NCBI RefSeq assembly: GCF_003432075.1
Contig: NZ_QWBU01000003.1
Coordinates: 310,001-374,000, forward strand
Length of the DNA: 64,000 nucleotides
Direction: 5' to 3'
Origin: Shinella sp. WSJ-2
GTDB taxonomy: Bacteria > Pseudomonadota > Alphaproteobacteria > Rhizobiales > Rhizobiaceae
The first letter of the stretch is position 1, and the number at the start of each line of letters is the position of its first letter. The notes under the pieces were generated by a model. That model was not told the origin of the DNA. It made no database searches and was given only the letters and a program-made list of their open reading frames with translations. The translations under genes were made by a program, and so were the position numbers. Shown piece by piece: positions 51,529-60,625 of this stretch.

Positions 51529-53101
51529 GGCGCGGCGGGCCTGCGCGGCGGTCGGCAAGACATTCGACAAGCAGATGCACGGGATGGCCGCAGGTTTCAG
51601 GATGATCAAGCAGGCCCGAGGGCACGAATTGCTGCGGATCGCGGATGAGTTGGCCGCGCAGATTGAGAACGGCAAGGCGGATGGGGGGCGGGGTGGTGCG
51701 AAGACCCCTCCCCAACCCCTCCCCACAGGGGGAAGGGGCTTAACCTTTGGCACTGTTGGAGAGGGAACACAGGCGACGGGTGTCCCTCAACCTATCTCCC
51801 CCTTTGTGGGGGAGATCGGCAAGAGGCTTGGGCCTTCTGCCAACGGCCTGGCGGGTGGCCTCAAGTCCGCGGATGTGAGACCTCGCCATCGTCGGCAATT
51901 GAACCGCTGGCATTTCACCGGCCGGCTCGCGCAGATGCCGCCGCCCGGTGATTGGCGGGTGTGGCTGCTGATGGGCGGGCGCGGCTCGGGCAAGACGCGG
52001 GCGGGAGCGGAATGGGTGCAGGCGCTCGCGCTTTCCGCACCGGATCTGCGCATCGCGCTGGTGGCGGAAACGCTGGGCGACGGGCGCGAGGTGATGATCG
52101 ACGGCGTCTCGGGCATCTGCCGGATCGCCGGGCGCGCCCGGCCGGAATTCGAAGCCTCGCGCCGGCGGTTGGTCTGGCCGAACGGCTCGATTGCCCAGAT
52201 TTTTTCCTCCGAGGATCCGGAGAGTTTGCGCGGGCCGCAGTTTCATTTCGCCTGGTGCGACGAAATCGGCAAATGGAAACATGCGCAGGAGACCTGGGAC
52301 ATGCTGCAATTCGGCCTGCGTCTCGGGGCGATGCCCCGCGTGCTGGTGACGACGACGCCGCGGCCGGTGCCGCTGCTTCGGGCGCTGGCGGCCGATCCCA
52401 GGACGGCGGTGCGGTGCATCCGAACCGATGACAATGCGCAAAACCTCTCGCCCGGCTTCATCGCCGCCATGGCCGACCGCTATGGCGGCACGCGGCTCGG
52501 GCGGCAGGAGCTCGACGGCGAGCTGATCGCCGACCGCGAGGATGCGCTGTGGAGCCGGGCGCGGCTGGAGGCGATCCGCGTGCGCCATGCCGGGCCGCTG
52601 TCGCGAATCGTTGTGGCGGTCGATCCGCCGGCAACGGCGTCGGCGGCTTCGGTCTGCGGCATCGTGGTGGCGGGGCTGGATGGTACTGGATGCGCGGTGG
52701 TGCTGGCAGACTGTTCCGTGACGGGCGCGAGCCCGGCCGGCTGGGCGGGTGCGGTGGTGCGCGCCTTCCGGCGGTTCGATGCGGACCGGGTGGTGGCGGA
52801 AATCAACCAGGGCGGCGACATGGTGACGGCCATGCTGAAGAGCGTGGAAGCCGACCTGCCGGTCAGCACGGTGCGGGCGACGCGCGGCAAGTTTCTGCGC
52901 GCCGAGCCGGTGGCGGCGCTCTACGAACAGGGGCGCGTGGCGCATGCCGGCGCCTTTGCCGAGCTGGAAGACCAGATGTGCGATTTCGGCCCGGACGGGC
53001 TTTCCGCGGGCCGCTCGCCGGACCGGCTCGACGCGCTGGTCTGGGCGCTGACGGCGTTGGTGCTCGACCGGCAGGGTGAACCGAGGGTGCGGGGGATTTG
53101 A
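51452..53101 (+). CDS. GTA/phage large terminase (gp2) with odd repeat-derived N-terminus
   Basis: 549 residues as an open frame. Residues ~165-549 are a terminase: Walker A GGRGSGKTRAGAEW, Walker B-like FHFAWCDEIGKW, TTTPRPVPLL motor coupling region and nuclease-domain acids in VAVDPPA, EINQGGD and SPDRLDALVWAL. This is the DNA-packaging motor. The first ~140 residues are not terminase-like: ~1-75 look like a separate small protein and ~75-125 are encoded by palindromic repeat DNA. The true start may be 51497 or as late as GTG 51875. It overlaps gp1 by 77 bases. Confidence 0.85.
   Translation: MRRGKAGGEKPGLAGMLPREWKTDRRARRACAAVGKTFDKQMHGMAAGFRMIKQARGHELLRIADELAAQIENGKADGGRGGAKTPPQPLPTGGRGLTFGTVGEGTQATGVPQPISPFVGEIGKRLGPSANGLAGGLKSADVRPRHRRQLNRWHFTGRLAQMPPPGDWRVWLLMGGRGSGKTRAGAEWVQALALSAPDLRIALVAETLGDGREVMIDGVSGICRIAGRARPEFEASRRRLVWPNGSIAQIFSSEDPESLRGPQFHFAWCDEIGKWKHAQETWDMLQFGLRLGAMPRVLVTTTPRPVPLLRALAADPRTAVRCIRTDDNAQNLSPGFIAAMADRYGGTRLGRQELDGELIADREDALWSRARLEAIRVRHAGPLSRIVVAVDPPATASAASVCGIVVAGLDGTGCAVVLADCSVTGASPAGWAGAVVRAFRRFDADRVVAEINQGGDMVTAMLKSVEADLPVSTVRATRGKFLRAEPVAALYEQGRVAHAGAFAELEDQMCDFGPDGLSAGRSPDRLDALVWALTALVLDRQGEPRVRGI
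51704..51816. repeat. palindromic intergenic-type repeats inside the terminase frame
   Basis: Two palindromes: an imperfect one (AACCCCTCCCC / GGGGGAAGGGG) around 51714-51740 and a perfect one with arms ATCTCCCCC and GGGGGAGAT around TTTGT (51794-51816). Such sequences are common between genes in rhizobia. Here they are read in frame and encode Pro/Gly-rich peptide. Confidence 0.7.
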
Positions 53102-53103
53102 CG

Positions 53104-53715
53104 ATGGCAATCGATCGCAAGGTCTTTTTCGATGGCGTGCGCGGCGCGCTTTATGGCGGGCGCTTGGCGGAAACGCAGGTCGCCGGGCTGACGGCCTTGC
53201 TCGACCGCTTCGAGGCGGGCAGCGAGACAAAAGACCGGCGCTTCCTCGCCTATATGCTGGCGACGGCGCATCACGAGACCGGCGGGCGTCTGCAGCCGGT
53301 GCGCGAAACCTTTGCCGCAACGGACGAGGTCGCGATCGGCCGGCTCGACCGGGCGTTTGCGACCGGGAAACTGCCGCAGGTTTCCGAACCCTATTGGCGG
53401 CGCGATGCGGCAGGACACAGCTGGCTCGGGCGCGGGCTGGTGCAGATCACGCATCGGCGCAATTACGACCGGCTTTCGGCGCTGACGGGCATCGACCTCG
53501 TCGCGCGGCCGGAGCGGGCGATGGAGATGGCGGTTTCGGTGGAGATCCTCTTCGTCGGCATGCTGCGCGGGGCCTTCACGGGGCGGCGGCTGGCGGATCA
53601 TTTTTCGGCGGGCCGGGCGGATTGGGTGGGCGCGCGGCGTATCATCAATGGGCCGGATAGGGCCGAGCGCGTGGCGGGGTACGGGCGGGCGTTTTTCGCG
53701 GCGCTGGGCGGGTAG
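53104..53715 (+). CDS. GH19 chitinase-like peptidoglycan hydrolase (endolysin)
   Basis: 203 residues. The glycoside hydrolase 19 fold is seen in RRFLAYMLATAHHETGGRLQ (catalytic Glu after His-His), SEPYWRRDAAGHSWLGRGLV, QITHRRNYDRLSALTG and the closing RIINGPDRAERVAGYGRAFF. It cuts cell wall glycan. It starts two bases after the terminase stop and precedes the portal gene. No signal peptide, so release would need a holin or cell lysis. Confidence 0.88.
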   Translation: MAIDRKVFFDGVRGALYGGRLAETQVAGLTALLDRFEAGSETKDRRFLAYMLATAHHETGGRLQPVRETFAATDEVAIGRLDRAFATGKLPQVSEPYWRRDAAGHSWLGRGLVQITHRRNYDRLSALTGIDLVARPERAMEMAVSVEILFVGMLRGAFTGRRLADHFSAGRADWVGARRIINGPDRAERVAGYGRAFFAALGG

Positions 53716-53726
53716 CGCGGTGGACG

Positions 53727-53877
53727 TGGTGTGGATCCTCGGCTCAAGGCCGAGGATGACGAAAGAAGAGACGTCCGCGCATCACTGCGACGTCTCCTGT
53801 GCCGATCTGCTCAAGAAGCCGGAAGGCCAAGCTTCCCCACTGTCATCCTCGGCCTTGAGCCGAGGATCCACGCCACG
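53727..53877. repeat. inverted pair of REP-like palindromes in the GTA cluster
   Basis: Two copies of the palindrome family seen at 15.5 and 15.85 kb, cores 53735-53757 and 53845-53867 (arms ATCCTCGGC/GCCGAGGAT and the reverse), facing each other across ~87 bases. The spacer has its own inverted repeat GAGACGTC (53768-53775)/GACGTCTC (53789-53796). No gene lies inside. The layout resembles a REP doublet. Confidence 0.8.
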
Positions 53878-55064: not shown

Positions 55065-55445
55065 CTTACAGTGCACAAGGGGCGCAGTCCGAGCCGAAGC
55101 GACAACGGACTGCTGGCCGCCATCATGGCGGTTGTAGGAAACTATTTTTGCACCTGAGGGCACGTCAACCGGCTAGTTTTGGGGGTGGGCGCGTGTGGTA
55201 CCGCCAGCTGGACGCCCTTTGTCGAAAAGCGGCTGGAAAACAATGGGTTGTCCATTCAGCTTGAATCATTCCGGTCATAAGCGGAATCGCCTTTTGAAGG
55301 CGTTGAATCTCTTTGCGAGCCATCGGGCGTAAAGAATTCAAAAGACTCAAGGAATGGCGAGGTCTGACTCGGGGTGAAACAGGGCCTGTGCCGCCGCCTG
55401 TGGCCTGTATGTCTCGATTTCCATAATAAACGGAAAGGCTTAACA
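55065..55445 (+). other. 381-base gene-free gap in the GTA cluster with tandem hairpins
   Basis: No convincing gene on either strand. It is less GC-rich than its flanks. Near the start are a hairpin with arms GCAGTCCG (55084-55091) and CGGACTGC (55106-55113) and directly after it CCGCCAT/ATGGCGG (55117-55131); CGCCTT/AAGGCG lies at 55288-55302. It could be a structured leader, a processing site, or the remnant of an insertion. Confidence 0.55.
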
Positions 55446-55754
55446 ATGGCTGACTTCGGAAACGACGGCGGGCTTTGGACGGCCCGGCTGGTCGGCGCGT
55501 CGGCGGGCGCTGCCGTGTCTCTCATCTATCTTCTGCCGAAAAGCCGCCGCGAGGCGGGATGCCGGTTCTTGACCGGGCTTGCCTGCGGTCTTGTCTTCGG
55601 CGGGCCGGCGGGGCTTTGGATCGCGGTCCGGTTCGGCATTGCCGGCTATCTCGGGCCGGCGGAAATGCTGCTGACGGGATCGGCGGCCGCAAGCCTTTCC
55701 GCCTGGTGGGGGCTCGGCGTGCTGGCGCGCATGGCCGAGCGGATGCGGCAGTAG
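55446..55754 (+). CDS. DUF6107 family protein
   Basis: 102 residues. MADFGNDGGLWTARLVGASA then two membrane helices (CRFLTGLACGLVFGGPAGLW; AAASLSAWWGLGVLARMAER). It sits between portal and protease, where rhizobial GTA clusters carry a small two-helix protein of this family. A holin-like role, releasing the GH19 lysozyme, is conceivable but unproven. Confidence 0.8.
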   Translation: MADFGNDGGLWTARLVGASAGAAVSLIYLLPKSRREAGCRFLTGLACGLVFGGPAGLWIAVRFGIAGYLGPAEMLLTGSAAASLSAWWGLGVLARMAERMRQ

Positions 55755-59109: not shown

Positions 59110-59517
59110 ATGGTGGCACAGAAGGGGCGCGATCTCCTGCTGAAGATCGAGAACGGGGCGGGCTTTGCGACCGCCGCCGGCCTTCGCTCGAAGCGGCTGG
59201 CTTTCAACGCGCAGATCGTCGACGTGACGGACGCGGATTCGGCGGGGCGCTGGCGCGAATTGCTCGGCGGCGCAGGCGTGCAGCGCGCGGCCGTCAGCGG
59301 CAGCGGCATCTTCAAGGATCAGGCATCGGACGCGCTGGTGCGCTCGGTGTTCTTCAACGGCACGATCTGCGACTGGCAGATCGTCATTCCGGATTTCGGC
59401 ACGGTTTCCGGCCCGTTCCAGGTGGCGGCATTGGAATATTCCGGCGCGCATGACGGGGAAATCCTGTTCGAGATTGCGCTGGAATCGGCCGGCGCCCTGA
59501 CCTTCGGGGCGCTGTGA
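59110..59517 (+). CDS. major tail tube protein, TP901-1 type (GTA gp9)
   Basis: 135 residues. GRDLLLKIENGAGFATAAGL, RSKRLAFNAQIVDVTDADSA, GRWRELLGGAGVQRAAVSGS and FEIALESAGALTFGAL fit the TP901-1/GTA tail tube family. Hexamers of it stack to form the tail. AAGGAAGGAA precedes the ATG. Confidence 0.93.
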   Translation: MVAQKGRDLLLKIENGAGFATAAGLRSKRLAFNAQIVDVTDADSAGRWRELLGGAGVQRAAVSGSGIFKDQASDALVRSVFFNGTICDWQIVIPDFGTVSGPFQVAALEYSGAHDGEILFEIALESAGALTFGAL

Positions 59518-59873
59518 TGGGTGCGCGGGCAAACCGGAGGCGCGGCGAGATCGAGGCCTTTCTCGACGGCGAGCGGCGCGTGCTGTGCCTGACGCTGGGC
59601 GCGCTTGCCGAACTGGAGACGGCCTTTGCCGTCGACAGCATGGCGGGGCTCGCCGAGCGCTTCTCCTCCGGCCGGCTGAAGGCGGAGGACCTCATCCGCA
59701 TCATCGGCGCGGGGCTGCGCGGCGCGGGCAATCTGTTCAGCGACGAGGATGTGGCGGGCATGGCCGTGGCCGAGGGGCTGGCGGGCTTTGCGCGCATCAC
59801 GGCTGAACTGCTTCAGGCGACATTCGAGGCGGAGGGCGCGGCGGCAAACCCTCCGGTGCCGCATTCGACCTGA
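59517..59873 (+). CDS. GTA gp10 family protein, N-terminal tail-assembly chaperone
   Basis: 118 residues. RRGEIEAFLDGERRVLCLTL, GALAELETAFAVDSMAGLAE and LRGAGNLFSDEDVAGMAVAE are the GTA gp10 pattern (similar to lambda gpG-position proteins). ATG shares a base with the tail-tube stop. Close to its end the message carries AAACCCT in register for a -1 ribosome slip (59846-59852) into the next frame; the expected fusion is about 185 residues. Confidence 0.88.
   Translation: MGARANRRRGEIEAFLDGERRVLCLTLGALAELETAFAVDSMAGLAERFSSGRLKAEDLIRIIGAGLRGAGNLFSDEDVAGMAVAEGLAGFARITAELLQATFEAEGAAANPPVPHST
59846..59852 (+). promoter_or_regulatory. -1 frameshift slippery heptamer
   Basis: A AAC CCT in the gp10 frame fits X XXY YYZ exactly (X=A, Y=C, Z=T). 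A slip back by one base gives AAA CCC and leads straight into the downstream chaperone frame, 21 bases before the gp10 stop. Confidence 0.6.
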
Positions 59874-60073
59874 GCGCCGAGGCCACTGCTTTCCCCTGGG
59901 AGGCGGTGCTTCATGCCGGGCTTTGCCGGATGCGGCTTCCCGCGAAAGACTTTTGGGCCATGACACCGCGCGAACTGGCCCATGTGTTTGGCCTGCTGCG
60001 GCCGCTGCCGGCCGCCACGCGGCGCGAAGACCTGACGGCGCTGATGCAGGCTTTTCCCGACGAGAAGGAGTGA
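59846..60073 (+). CDS. tail-assembly chaperone, RcGTA g10.1/rcc01693-like, probably made by frameshift
   Basis: The frame from 59807 to 60073 has no ATG, GTG or TTG before its conserved part begins. Residues AEATAFPWEAVLHAGLCRMR, LPAKDFWAMTPRELAHVFGL and REDLTALMQAFPDEKE match the rcc01693 family of phage tail assembly chaperones. Only CTG at 59870, GTG at 59906 or ATG at 59930 could start it alone, the last two cutting into the conserved block. The simplest reading is a -1 fusion with gp10, as in lambda G/GT. It binds the tape measure during tail assembly. Confidence 0.75.
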   Translation, partial: KPSGAAFDLSAEATAFPWEAVLHAGLCRMRLPAKDFWAMTPRELAHVFGLLRPLPAATRREDLTALMQAFPDEKE

Positions 60074-60076
60074 ACC

Positions 60077-60625
60077 ATGGCGCAAGCGGACAACCGGTCG
60101 CTTGATACCACGAAACAGACCGCCGAGCAGCTTTCAACGATCTTCGACGACCTGGAGGCGCGTTCGCGCTCCTTCGGCTCGGCGCTGACGGGCGCATTGA
60201 GAGGTGCGGTCGTCGACGGCAAGGGGCTGGAGGGCGTGCTGACCGGCCTTGCCCGACGGATGAGCGATATCGCGCTTTCAGCGGGACTGAAGCCGCTCGA
60301 GGGTGTCCTGTCGTCCGGCGTTTCGGCGTTGCTCGGCCGTGTGACGCCCTTTGCCAAGGGTGGTGTCGTGTCGGCGCCGACCTATTTCGGCGGCGGCAGC
60401 GGCGGCGGGCTGGGCCTGATGGGCGAGGCGGGAGCGGAGGCGATCCTGCCTTTGAAACGCGGGCCGGACGGCGCGCTTGGCCTGGCCACAGAAGGGGGGG
60501 CGGGCGCGGGCGCACGCATCGTCTTCAACGTGACGGCGCAGGATGCGGCGAGCTTCCGCAAATCCGAGGGGCAGATCGCGGCCATGCTGACACGCGCCGT
60601 GGGGCGCGGACAGCGCAGTCTGTGA
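60077..60625 (+). CDS. short phage tail tape measure protein (GTA gp11)
   Basis: 182 residues, very short for a tape measure but right for GTAs (RcGTA ~219). N-terminal helix RSLDTTKQTAEQLSTIFDDL, hydrophobic SALTGALRGAVVDGKGLEGV, then AKGGVVSAPTYFGGGSGGGL and GLMGEAGAEAILPLKRGPDG, the phage tail-tape C-terminal motif. Its length sets a short tail. It starts three bases after the chaperone stop. Confidence 0.9.
   Translation: MAQADNRSLDTTKQTAEQLSTIFDDLEARSRSFGSALTGALRGAVVDGKGLEGVLTGLARRMSDIALSAGLKPLEGVLSSGVSALLGRVTPFAKGGVVSAPTYFGGGSGGGLGLMGEAGAEAILPLKRGPDGALGLATEGGAGAGARIVFNVTAQDAASFRKSEGQIAAMLTRAVGRGQRSL

Follow-up and report, generated by a model that had tools for sequence, protein, structure and literature searches.

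A class of tail chaperone frameshifts of the lambda G/GT kind was reportedly described by Xu in 2004; the heptamer used by lambda is G_GGA_AAG. The -1 frameshift of E. coli dnaX combines an SD sequence about 10 nt upstream, a heptamer and a stem, and there the shift shortens the product.

Frameshifted tail chaperones are presented as a phage trick in the available passages of three papers (PMC3556154, PMC5009743, PMC3711429). According to these excerpts, phiCbK-like Caulobacter phages carry a -1 shift in the chaperone gene preceding the tape measure gene, at AAAAAAC or, in Colossus, at GGGAAAC (PMC3556154), and two HK97-like genes show 6-7% frameshifting (PMC3711429). For RcGTA, an excerpt of PMC11409702 names the genes 'tail chaperone 1' and 'tail chaperone 2 (g10.5)', comparing g10.5 with a tail assembly protein of lambda. 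Full-text searches naming GTAs, with subscription literature outside their scope, returned no title or abstract reporting frameshifting of a GTA tail chaperone (e.g., PMC12846349, PMC4882933 and PMC9030533), and the available portions of PMC8601537, PMC9765227, PMC7296036, PMC10299305, PMC8718954, PMC9022992, PMC10721106, PMC3556154, PMC10127595 and PMC11409702 do not mention g10 frameshifting.

The window, i.e. the whole stretch of 64,000 nucleotides analyzed here, comes from the 5.14-Mb genome of the soil bacterium Shinella sp. WSJ-2. From ~51.4 kb to the end of the window, profile and sequence searches identified an RcGTA-like head-tail cluster with families and gene order of the RcGTA type: terminase, portal, HK97-type protease, capsid, connector, closure, tail completion, tail tube, gp10, second chaperone, short tape measure, DUF2460, hub TIGR02218 and NlpC/P60. 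The chaperone pair is located between the tail tube gene gp9 (59110..59517; PF06199 8e-44; R. capsulatus Rcc01691 1e-45), directly 5' of gp10, and gp11, directly 3' of the second chaperone (60077..60625), which encodes a 182-aa short tape measure protein with a score of 139 bits to NF058675 RcGTA_tape, below the model cut-off of 220. Both genes, gp10 and the junction features described below are on the + strand. A glycoside hydrolase 19 (lysozyme-like) gene is found between terminase and portal (53098-53715; PF00182 5.9e-6), and a lysis role for it is a guess. Between this gene and the portal gene lies an inverted repeat (53725-53877; 36-nt arms, 97% complementary, 81 nt apart) that looks like a dispersed palindromic element. 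A DUF6107 gene is located between portal and protease (55374-55754; PF19602 1.9e-46).

The gp10 junction and its putative slip site

GTA gp10, tail assembly chaperone 1, occupies the 0 frame at 59517..59873 (PF11836 3e-28). It starts at ATG 59517 (or possibly at GTG 59514), and TGA 59871-59873, following a last sense codon that ends at 59870, closes a frame of 118 codons. The second chaperone lies in an overlapping -1 frame, which opens at 59807 after TGA 59804-59806 and runs stop to stop to 60073 (PF09550 1.4e-13); it belongs to TIGR02216, the 'rcc01693 family' (57.4 bits vs a cut-off of 56.1). The PF09550 profile match extends from the FPW motif onward (59891..60064), and Pfam labels both PF11836 and PF09550 as TAC. 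The AlphaFold2 model of gp10 (pLDDT 87) resembles phage tail assembly chaperones only weakly in its predicted fold, with weak matches to phage tail proteins: against BFVD, the best match was to an uncharacterised protein (E 0.0026) with none at E <= 0.001, and matches named tail assembly chaperone begin at E 0.02 (TM 0.63), others being named tail tube protein. A PDB fold search with this model gave 7 noise matches, none relevant, and neither chaperone profile found a relevant match among PDB sequences.

The initial annotation had placed the chaperone frame after the stop at 59804, in the -1 frame of gp10, without ATG, GTG or TTG ahead of its conserved part and with an A AAC CCT heptamer in the gp10 register just before the gp10 stop. 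All of this holds in the window. The first such codon of the -1 frame is GTG 59906, already within FPWEAV (TTC 59891-59893), and the codon overlapping the gp10 TGA is CTG 59870. The heptamer occupies 59846..59852, with AAC at 59847-59849 and CCT at 59850-59852 as gp10 codons. The part translated after a slip is 59852-60070, or 73 codons, so that the predicted products of 118 and about 185 residues are borne out by arithmetic (118 codons unshifted; 112 + 73 = 185 shifted). We consider it very probable, from comparison of sequences, that programmed -1 frameshifting near the gp10 end produces proteins of 118 and 185 residues.

For the comparison, a family/named set combined the 30 top-ranked of 99 same-family matches with the 80 top-ranked of 469 loci from named genomes (Shinella, Rhizobium, Agrobacterium, Neorhizobium, Hoeflea, Martelella and others, plus a few Methylocystis and Aureimonas). 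From two further match lists, of 33 and 183 entries, the top 30 each were taken, the own genome being counted in the lists of 99, 33 and 183 matches, and 39 more loci were hand-picked for spread across families. Locus L140 had no gp10 match, and removal of 7 identical junctions out of 138 left 131 distinct first-round junctions, i.e. the family/named set (103) and 28 usable class loci. Among the 80 top-ranked of the 469 named-genome loci, the nearest gp10 relatives are from Shinella, with four loci at 80-85% identity; gp10 of Shinella sp. PSBB067 is 87% identical to that of the window. An outlier, L035 from Shinella pollutisoli, has a gp10 frame without a stop at the usual place, which continues into the second gene.

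The second frame was found at -1 in all 103 family/named junctions and in 127 of the 131 first-round junctions (+1 in two and 0 in two, all four being class loci), and among 68 order-level loci it was at -1 in 61, at +1 in five and at 0 in one, one locus having no match to the second profile. Two domains that adjoin in different frames could also be one ancestral gene split by a true frameshift mutation or an assembly error. The recurrence of the same -1 layout, with both families still recognizable, leaves that explanation a practically negligible probability, and a sequence error or decayed gene is refuted by the conservation of the -1 arrangement.

The heptamer of the window is weak evidence when taken alone, because some in-register X XXY YYZ occurs in 21.4% of 5000 synonymous recodings of the window overlap, and the case rests on comparison. 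Other 69-nt stretches of gp10 hold an in-register X XXY YYZ in 12 of 407 cases. For the relatives, the slip site was placed by rule, as the CCC codon in the -1 frame with AAAC preferred; one locus without a C_CC slip site (L030) was left out, giving a set of 102 that includes the window. An exact heptamer is present at the slip position in 54/102, vs 5.5 ± 2.2 after synonymous recoding (maximum 13 in 300 runs); placement by rule makes these counts lean upwards, and the recoding control used the same positions. The conservation of the heptamer that the initial annotation had proposed to check applies to these 54 sites, the other 48 not being exact heptamers, and extends further as a conserved in-register tetramer, C_CCY, kept in 46 of those 48 and in 99/102 overall.

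The proline codon at the slip is CCT in 85, CCC in 14, CCG in two and CCA in one of the 102 sites, vs a background of 52% CCG, 27% CCC, 12% CCA and 9.3% CCT. It adjoins the gp10 stop in 66/102, is one codon off in 11 and two to eight codons off in 25, and 32/102 sites have a lone proline slip codon immediately before the stop and no A_AAC part. The E. coli study of Sharma et al., 2014 (PMC4066793) indicates that, among tetramers tested with a stimulator, C_CCU is about as shift-prone as C_CCC, whereas C_CCA and C_CCG reach only 1.8-3.6-fold over background, that CCN heptamers shift less than AAN or UUN ones, and that A_AA.C_CC.A remains below threshold even with a strong stimulator. The CCT/CCC bias of the slip codon is in line with the C_CCY rule measured there. 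In the excerpt of PMC5009743, a CCC_UGA-type site is described for +1 shifts.

This slip site is also present in two database entries. L212 (MW462191.1) is a 103-kb 'Bacteriophage sp.' record in which the GTA cluster adjoins an FAD/FMN dehydrogenase gene and A AAC CCT TGA is present; the annotated start of its second chaperone is an internal ATG, and the record may be a piece of bacterial chromosome. L211 (NZ_CP069303.1) is a 4.6-Mb Shinella 'plasmid' that, since it carries the GTA cluster, may be the chromosome; it has the same A AAC CCT and stem arms as the window and no ATG, GTG or TTG from the slip to FPW.

Elements flanking the putative slip site

Upstream of the window heptamer, at a distance of 9 nt, lies an SD-like GGAGGG (59831..59836), a putative 5' stimulator to which an anti-SD energy peak, a recoding control and a comparison of groups all point. 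Among the positions listed for the 103 junctions, mean anti-SD pairing is strongest for 8-mers whose first base lies 15 nt upstream of the heptamer (-5.6 vs -2.3 kcal/mol background). Compared with synonymous recoding, the observed energy is -5.05 vs -3.94 ± 0.19, and none of 300 recodings was as low; since the recoded value already beats the background, the signal is partly a by-product of the linker residues. In stop-adjacent loci (n=66) the peak lies 15 nt before the heptamer, which is 20-21 nt before a would-be start on the stop. In loci with the stop 6-8 codons on (n=17) it lies 15-17 nt before the heptamer and ~42 nt before the stop, and in loci that have a restart codon alone (n=24) it precedes that codon by 11-12 nt, the usual initiation spacing. 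These peak positions indicate that between groups the SD-like element goes with the heptamer; within the 17 stop-distant loci a heptamer-linked and a stop-linked element are indistinguishable, because the stop alignment is slightly deeper (-5.46 at -42) than the heptamer alignment (-4.91).

These spacings bear on an alternative, termination-coupled restart, in which the second chaperone would be a separate protein whose start overlaps the gp10 stop (CTG 59870 in the window; TTG, ATG or GTG in relatives). A restart on the stop of the stop-adjacent loci would have its SD-like element 20-21 nt away, as opposed to the 11-12 nt of restart-type loci. In the window, the sole codon overlapping the stop is CTG, and 59856-59869 contains no GGAG, GAGG or AGGA. 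An alignment of 16 sequences shows no variation in the proline of the [K/G]P motif, 5' of the would-be start. We regard coupled restart as a very unlikely explanation for the window, despite the start codons of its relatives described below.

Downstream, a 5-nt spacer (59853..59857) separates the heptamer from the 5' arm of a conserved RNA stem (59858..59867; GCCGCAT core), whose 3' arm (59927..59936; ATGCGGC core) falls on codons of the LRL/MRL motif. The stem emerged from a search of 95 loci whose slip and FPW are 24-75 nt apart, in which nucleotides 5-16 past the heptamer pair with nucleotides 34-45 past the F of FPW with a mean probability of up to 0.94. Codon choice at the stem positions is skewed to Ala GCA in 81/93 (8% of Ala codons elsewhere), Ala GCC in 89/93 (37%) and Arg CGG in 91/93 (34%), and this skew inside the stem preserves pairing. 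In a MAFFT alignment of 58 junctions, 94.3% of stem cells are paired. Double-sided changes occur in 56 cells, vs 18.3 ± 3.0 after shuffling, and covariation is 0.259, vs 0.085 in shuffles and at most 0.078 in slid versions, with 0/500 shuffles reaching either value; the stem had itself been identified in these loci. Counted by pair, five show at least one double change, a number reached by 97/500 shuffles, and slid versions gave six and eight. RNAalifold independently predicts nine of the stem pairs.

The downstream fold is stronger than in synonymous recodings (mean z -2.39, n=100), vs -0.82 in a gp10 body control (n=100). The window itself is ordinary by this measure (z -0.69); its stem is within the minimum-energy fold (z -2.21 vs dinucleotide shuffles, 8/200 as good). 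Short-range structure right after the slip is absent in 35- and 50-nt windows (mean z -0.03 to 0.31). Mean z reaches -0.96 at 70 nt and -3.96 at 90 nt, and the long-range stem alone stands out. Pairing of the 3' arm was scored in 158 of 188 junctions. For family slip sites its mean is 0.87 with A_AAC_CC (n=51) and 0.97 with C_CCY (n=42), and for order-level slip sites 0.22 (n=15) and 0.38 (n=9), respectively; restart types give 0.20 in the family (n=4), 0.14 in the order (n=19) and 0.44 in the class (n=3). Pairing exceeds 0.5 in 3/15 order-level A_AAC_CCT loci, and the stem is present in 2/3 class-level restart loci. The stem is therefore a feature of the window's family and a few neighbors, not of every slip site.

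A run of A followed by a run of C might instead let the polymerase slip, so that a joined product would arise by transcriptional slippage on a homopolymer. The runs of the window are merely three bases long, and the spacing of the SD-like element, the C_CCY bias and the stem all point to translation, which makes slippage during transcription highly improbable. Programmed -1 frameshifting, as proposed in the initial annotation, is supported by the conserved slip site and additionally by the SD-like element and the covarying stem, two likely stimulators that the annotation had not seen.

Start codons, restart and loci beyond the family

The lack of a start codon in the second frame, whose recurrence in relatives the initial annotation had proposed to check, recurs in part. 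From the slip to FPW, ATG, GTG and TTG are all absent from 31/103 family/named junctions, among them the window, a count that speaks against coupled restart, and in 23/103, again including the window, the whole open -1 frame upstream of FPW is free of them. In the remainder, TTG is found on the gp10 stop in 59/103 and ATG or GTG in 9/103, with a start solely further down in four; these codons on the stop count in favor of coupled restart, and the sequence CCT TGA creates the TTG automatically.

For the following tallies, every X XXY YYZ within the final 75 nt was counted as a heptamer, including those due to chance. Inside the family/named set (103 junctions), 47 have only a heptamer, four only an ATG/GTG restart, eight both and 44 neither (Fisher 0.90), so the two signals do not exclude each other there. 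Outside the family (85 -1 junctions), the corresponding numbers are 42, 28, one and 14, a near exclusion (Fisher 5e-11, kinship ignored). A gp10 tree (126 rows; 16 of 123 inner branches supported; three supported pairs) did not demonstrate independent swapping between heptamer and restart.

The eight family/named junctions that combine an in-register heptamer with an ATG/GTG close to the stop, such as Shinella lacus L032 with A AAC CCT and GCATGA, would be compatible with use of both routes, a frameshift fusion plus some free second chaperone made by ATG/GTG/TTG restart. Only one of the 85 junctions outside the family combines the two signals, and the reading is inapplicable to the window, which has no such start. 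We consider it very unlikely.

Restart is the evident mode in L119, where the junction reads TCATGA, an ATGA overlap, and a heptamer is absent, which argues for restart rather than slippage. L119 stands in for the R. capsulatus junction, its gp9 being 80% identical to Rcc01691. A similar junction is found in L123, ATGA/GTGA overlap starts occur in loci from several other families of the order, and the SD-like peak of such loci is normally spaced. The arrangement that the initial annotation had named as contradicting frameshifting, a well-placed ATG with a ribosome site and no heptamer, does not describe the window's family but does apply to L119 and to these order-level loci. Likewise, the suggestion that GTAs retain a phage trick stands for the family of the window and is not universal.

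Heptamers differ by lineage, the forms being A_AAC_CCT, G_GGA_AAG, and C_CCT_TTC together with T_TTC_CCT where the sequence encodes PFPW. G_GGA_AAG is located 7-10 nt before the gp10 stop in class loci L117, L129, L172, L176 and L183. In two tailed phages, Desulfofustis phage LS06-2018-MD02 and Siphoviridae ctuI7215, a PF11836 gene carries an in-register G_GGA_AAC 7-10 nt before its stop and is followed after the stop by a second chaperone in the -1 frame; ctuI7215 also has a PF09550 gene. Their presence suggests that slippage may well be older than GTA domestication. Phage RcapNL, with a 190-aa PF11836 ORF, was considered as a natural in-frame fusion and rejected as weak, the second profile scoring 8-11 bits; no fetched locus has both domains in one ORF at E 1e-3. 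In RcDormio, for which a joined chaperone is annotated, Pfam gave no match to the first ORF at E 1, and the last 90 nt of that frame contain no X XXY YYZ.

Proposed mechanism and known systems

From the anatomy, conservation, codon bias and covariation observed at this junction we infer ribosome slippage, and its rate and the function of the chaperones would be as follows. Most ribosomes would end at TGA 59871 and yield the 118-residue chaperone. A minority would be held by the upstream SD-like GGAGGG and the GC-rich stem 5 nt downstream and slip one base back on A AAC CCT, with AAC/CCT re-pairing as AAA/CCC. The shifted ribosomes would continue through the second chaperone to 60073, giving the 185-residue fusion, presumably a minor product. 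At lone C_CCY sites, a stop codon in the A site may help slippage. If they act as lambda gpG/gpGT do, the two forms would cover the tape measure protein and assist in bringing in tail tube subunits.

In a broader reading, to which we give about even chances, the GTAs of Alphaproteobacteria have repeatedly changed how tail chaperone 2 is produced, by -1 slippage on A_AAC_CCY, G_GGA_AAG or C_CCT_TTC/T_TTC_CCT, or by coupled restart, and in the window's family a spaced SD and a long-range stem make lone proline sites beside the stop, of the kind described for +1 shifts in PMC5009743, shift by -1 instead. Maintenance of the slip cassette would then imply selection on the chaperone ratio, and hence on working GTA tails, in these bacteria. 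If frameshifting does take place at this junction, a decoding trick of phage tails has survived under selection in gene clusters that have ceased to produce phages, an argument that these bacteria still assemble GTA tails. The start of the second chaperone, which two public records place at an internal ATG, would also need correction, and one gene pair would provide natural variation in slip motifs, stimulators and restart signals with which to ask how and why gene pairs switch between frameshifting and re-initiation.

The window shares with lambda G/GT two overlapping ORFs between the tail tube and tape measure genes, the second at -1 and without its own start, an in-register heptamer shortly before the first ORF ends, and a short and an extended product, which in the window are predicted. 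It differs in being a domesticated GTA with PF11836/PF09550 families and A_AAC_CCT or C_CCY in place of G_GGA_AAG, and its family has in addition an SD-like element and a long-range covarying stem; five other alphaproteobacterial loci do have G_GGA_AAG just before the gp10 stop. With dnaX the window has in common the three-part layout and a nearly equal SD spacing (9 nt, vs 10 in dnaX), whereas the heptamer and the gene are different and the shift in the window lengthens the product. Gene order and families are those of RcGTA g10 and g10.1/g10.5, and gp9 of the window is related to Rcc01691, but L119, the stand-in for RcGTA, has an ATGA overlap without a heptamer. Finally, the phiCbK-like phages, as described in the excerpt of PMC3556154, likewise have a -1 shift in the chaperone preceding the tape measure, and some of their tail proteins are distantly related to those of GTAs; their slip motif is a different one, and the context is that of a phage.
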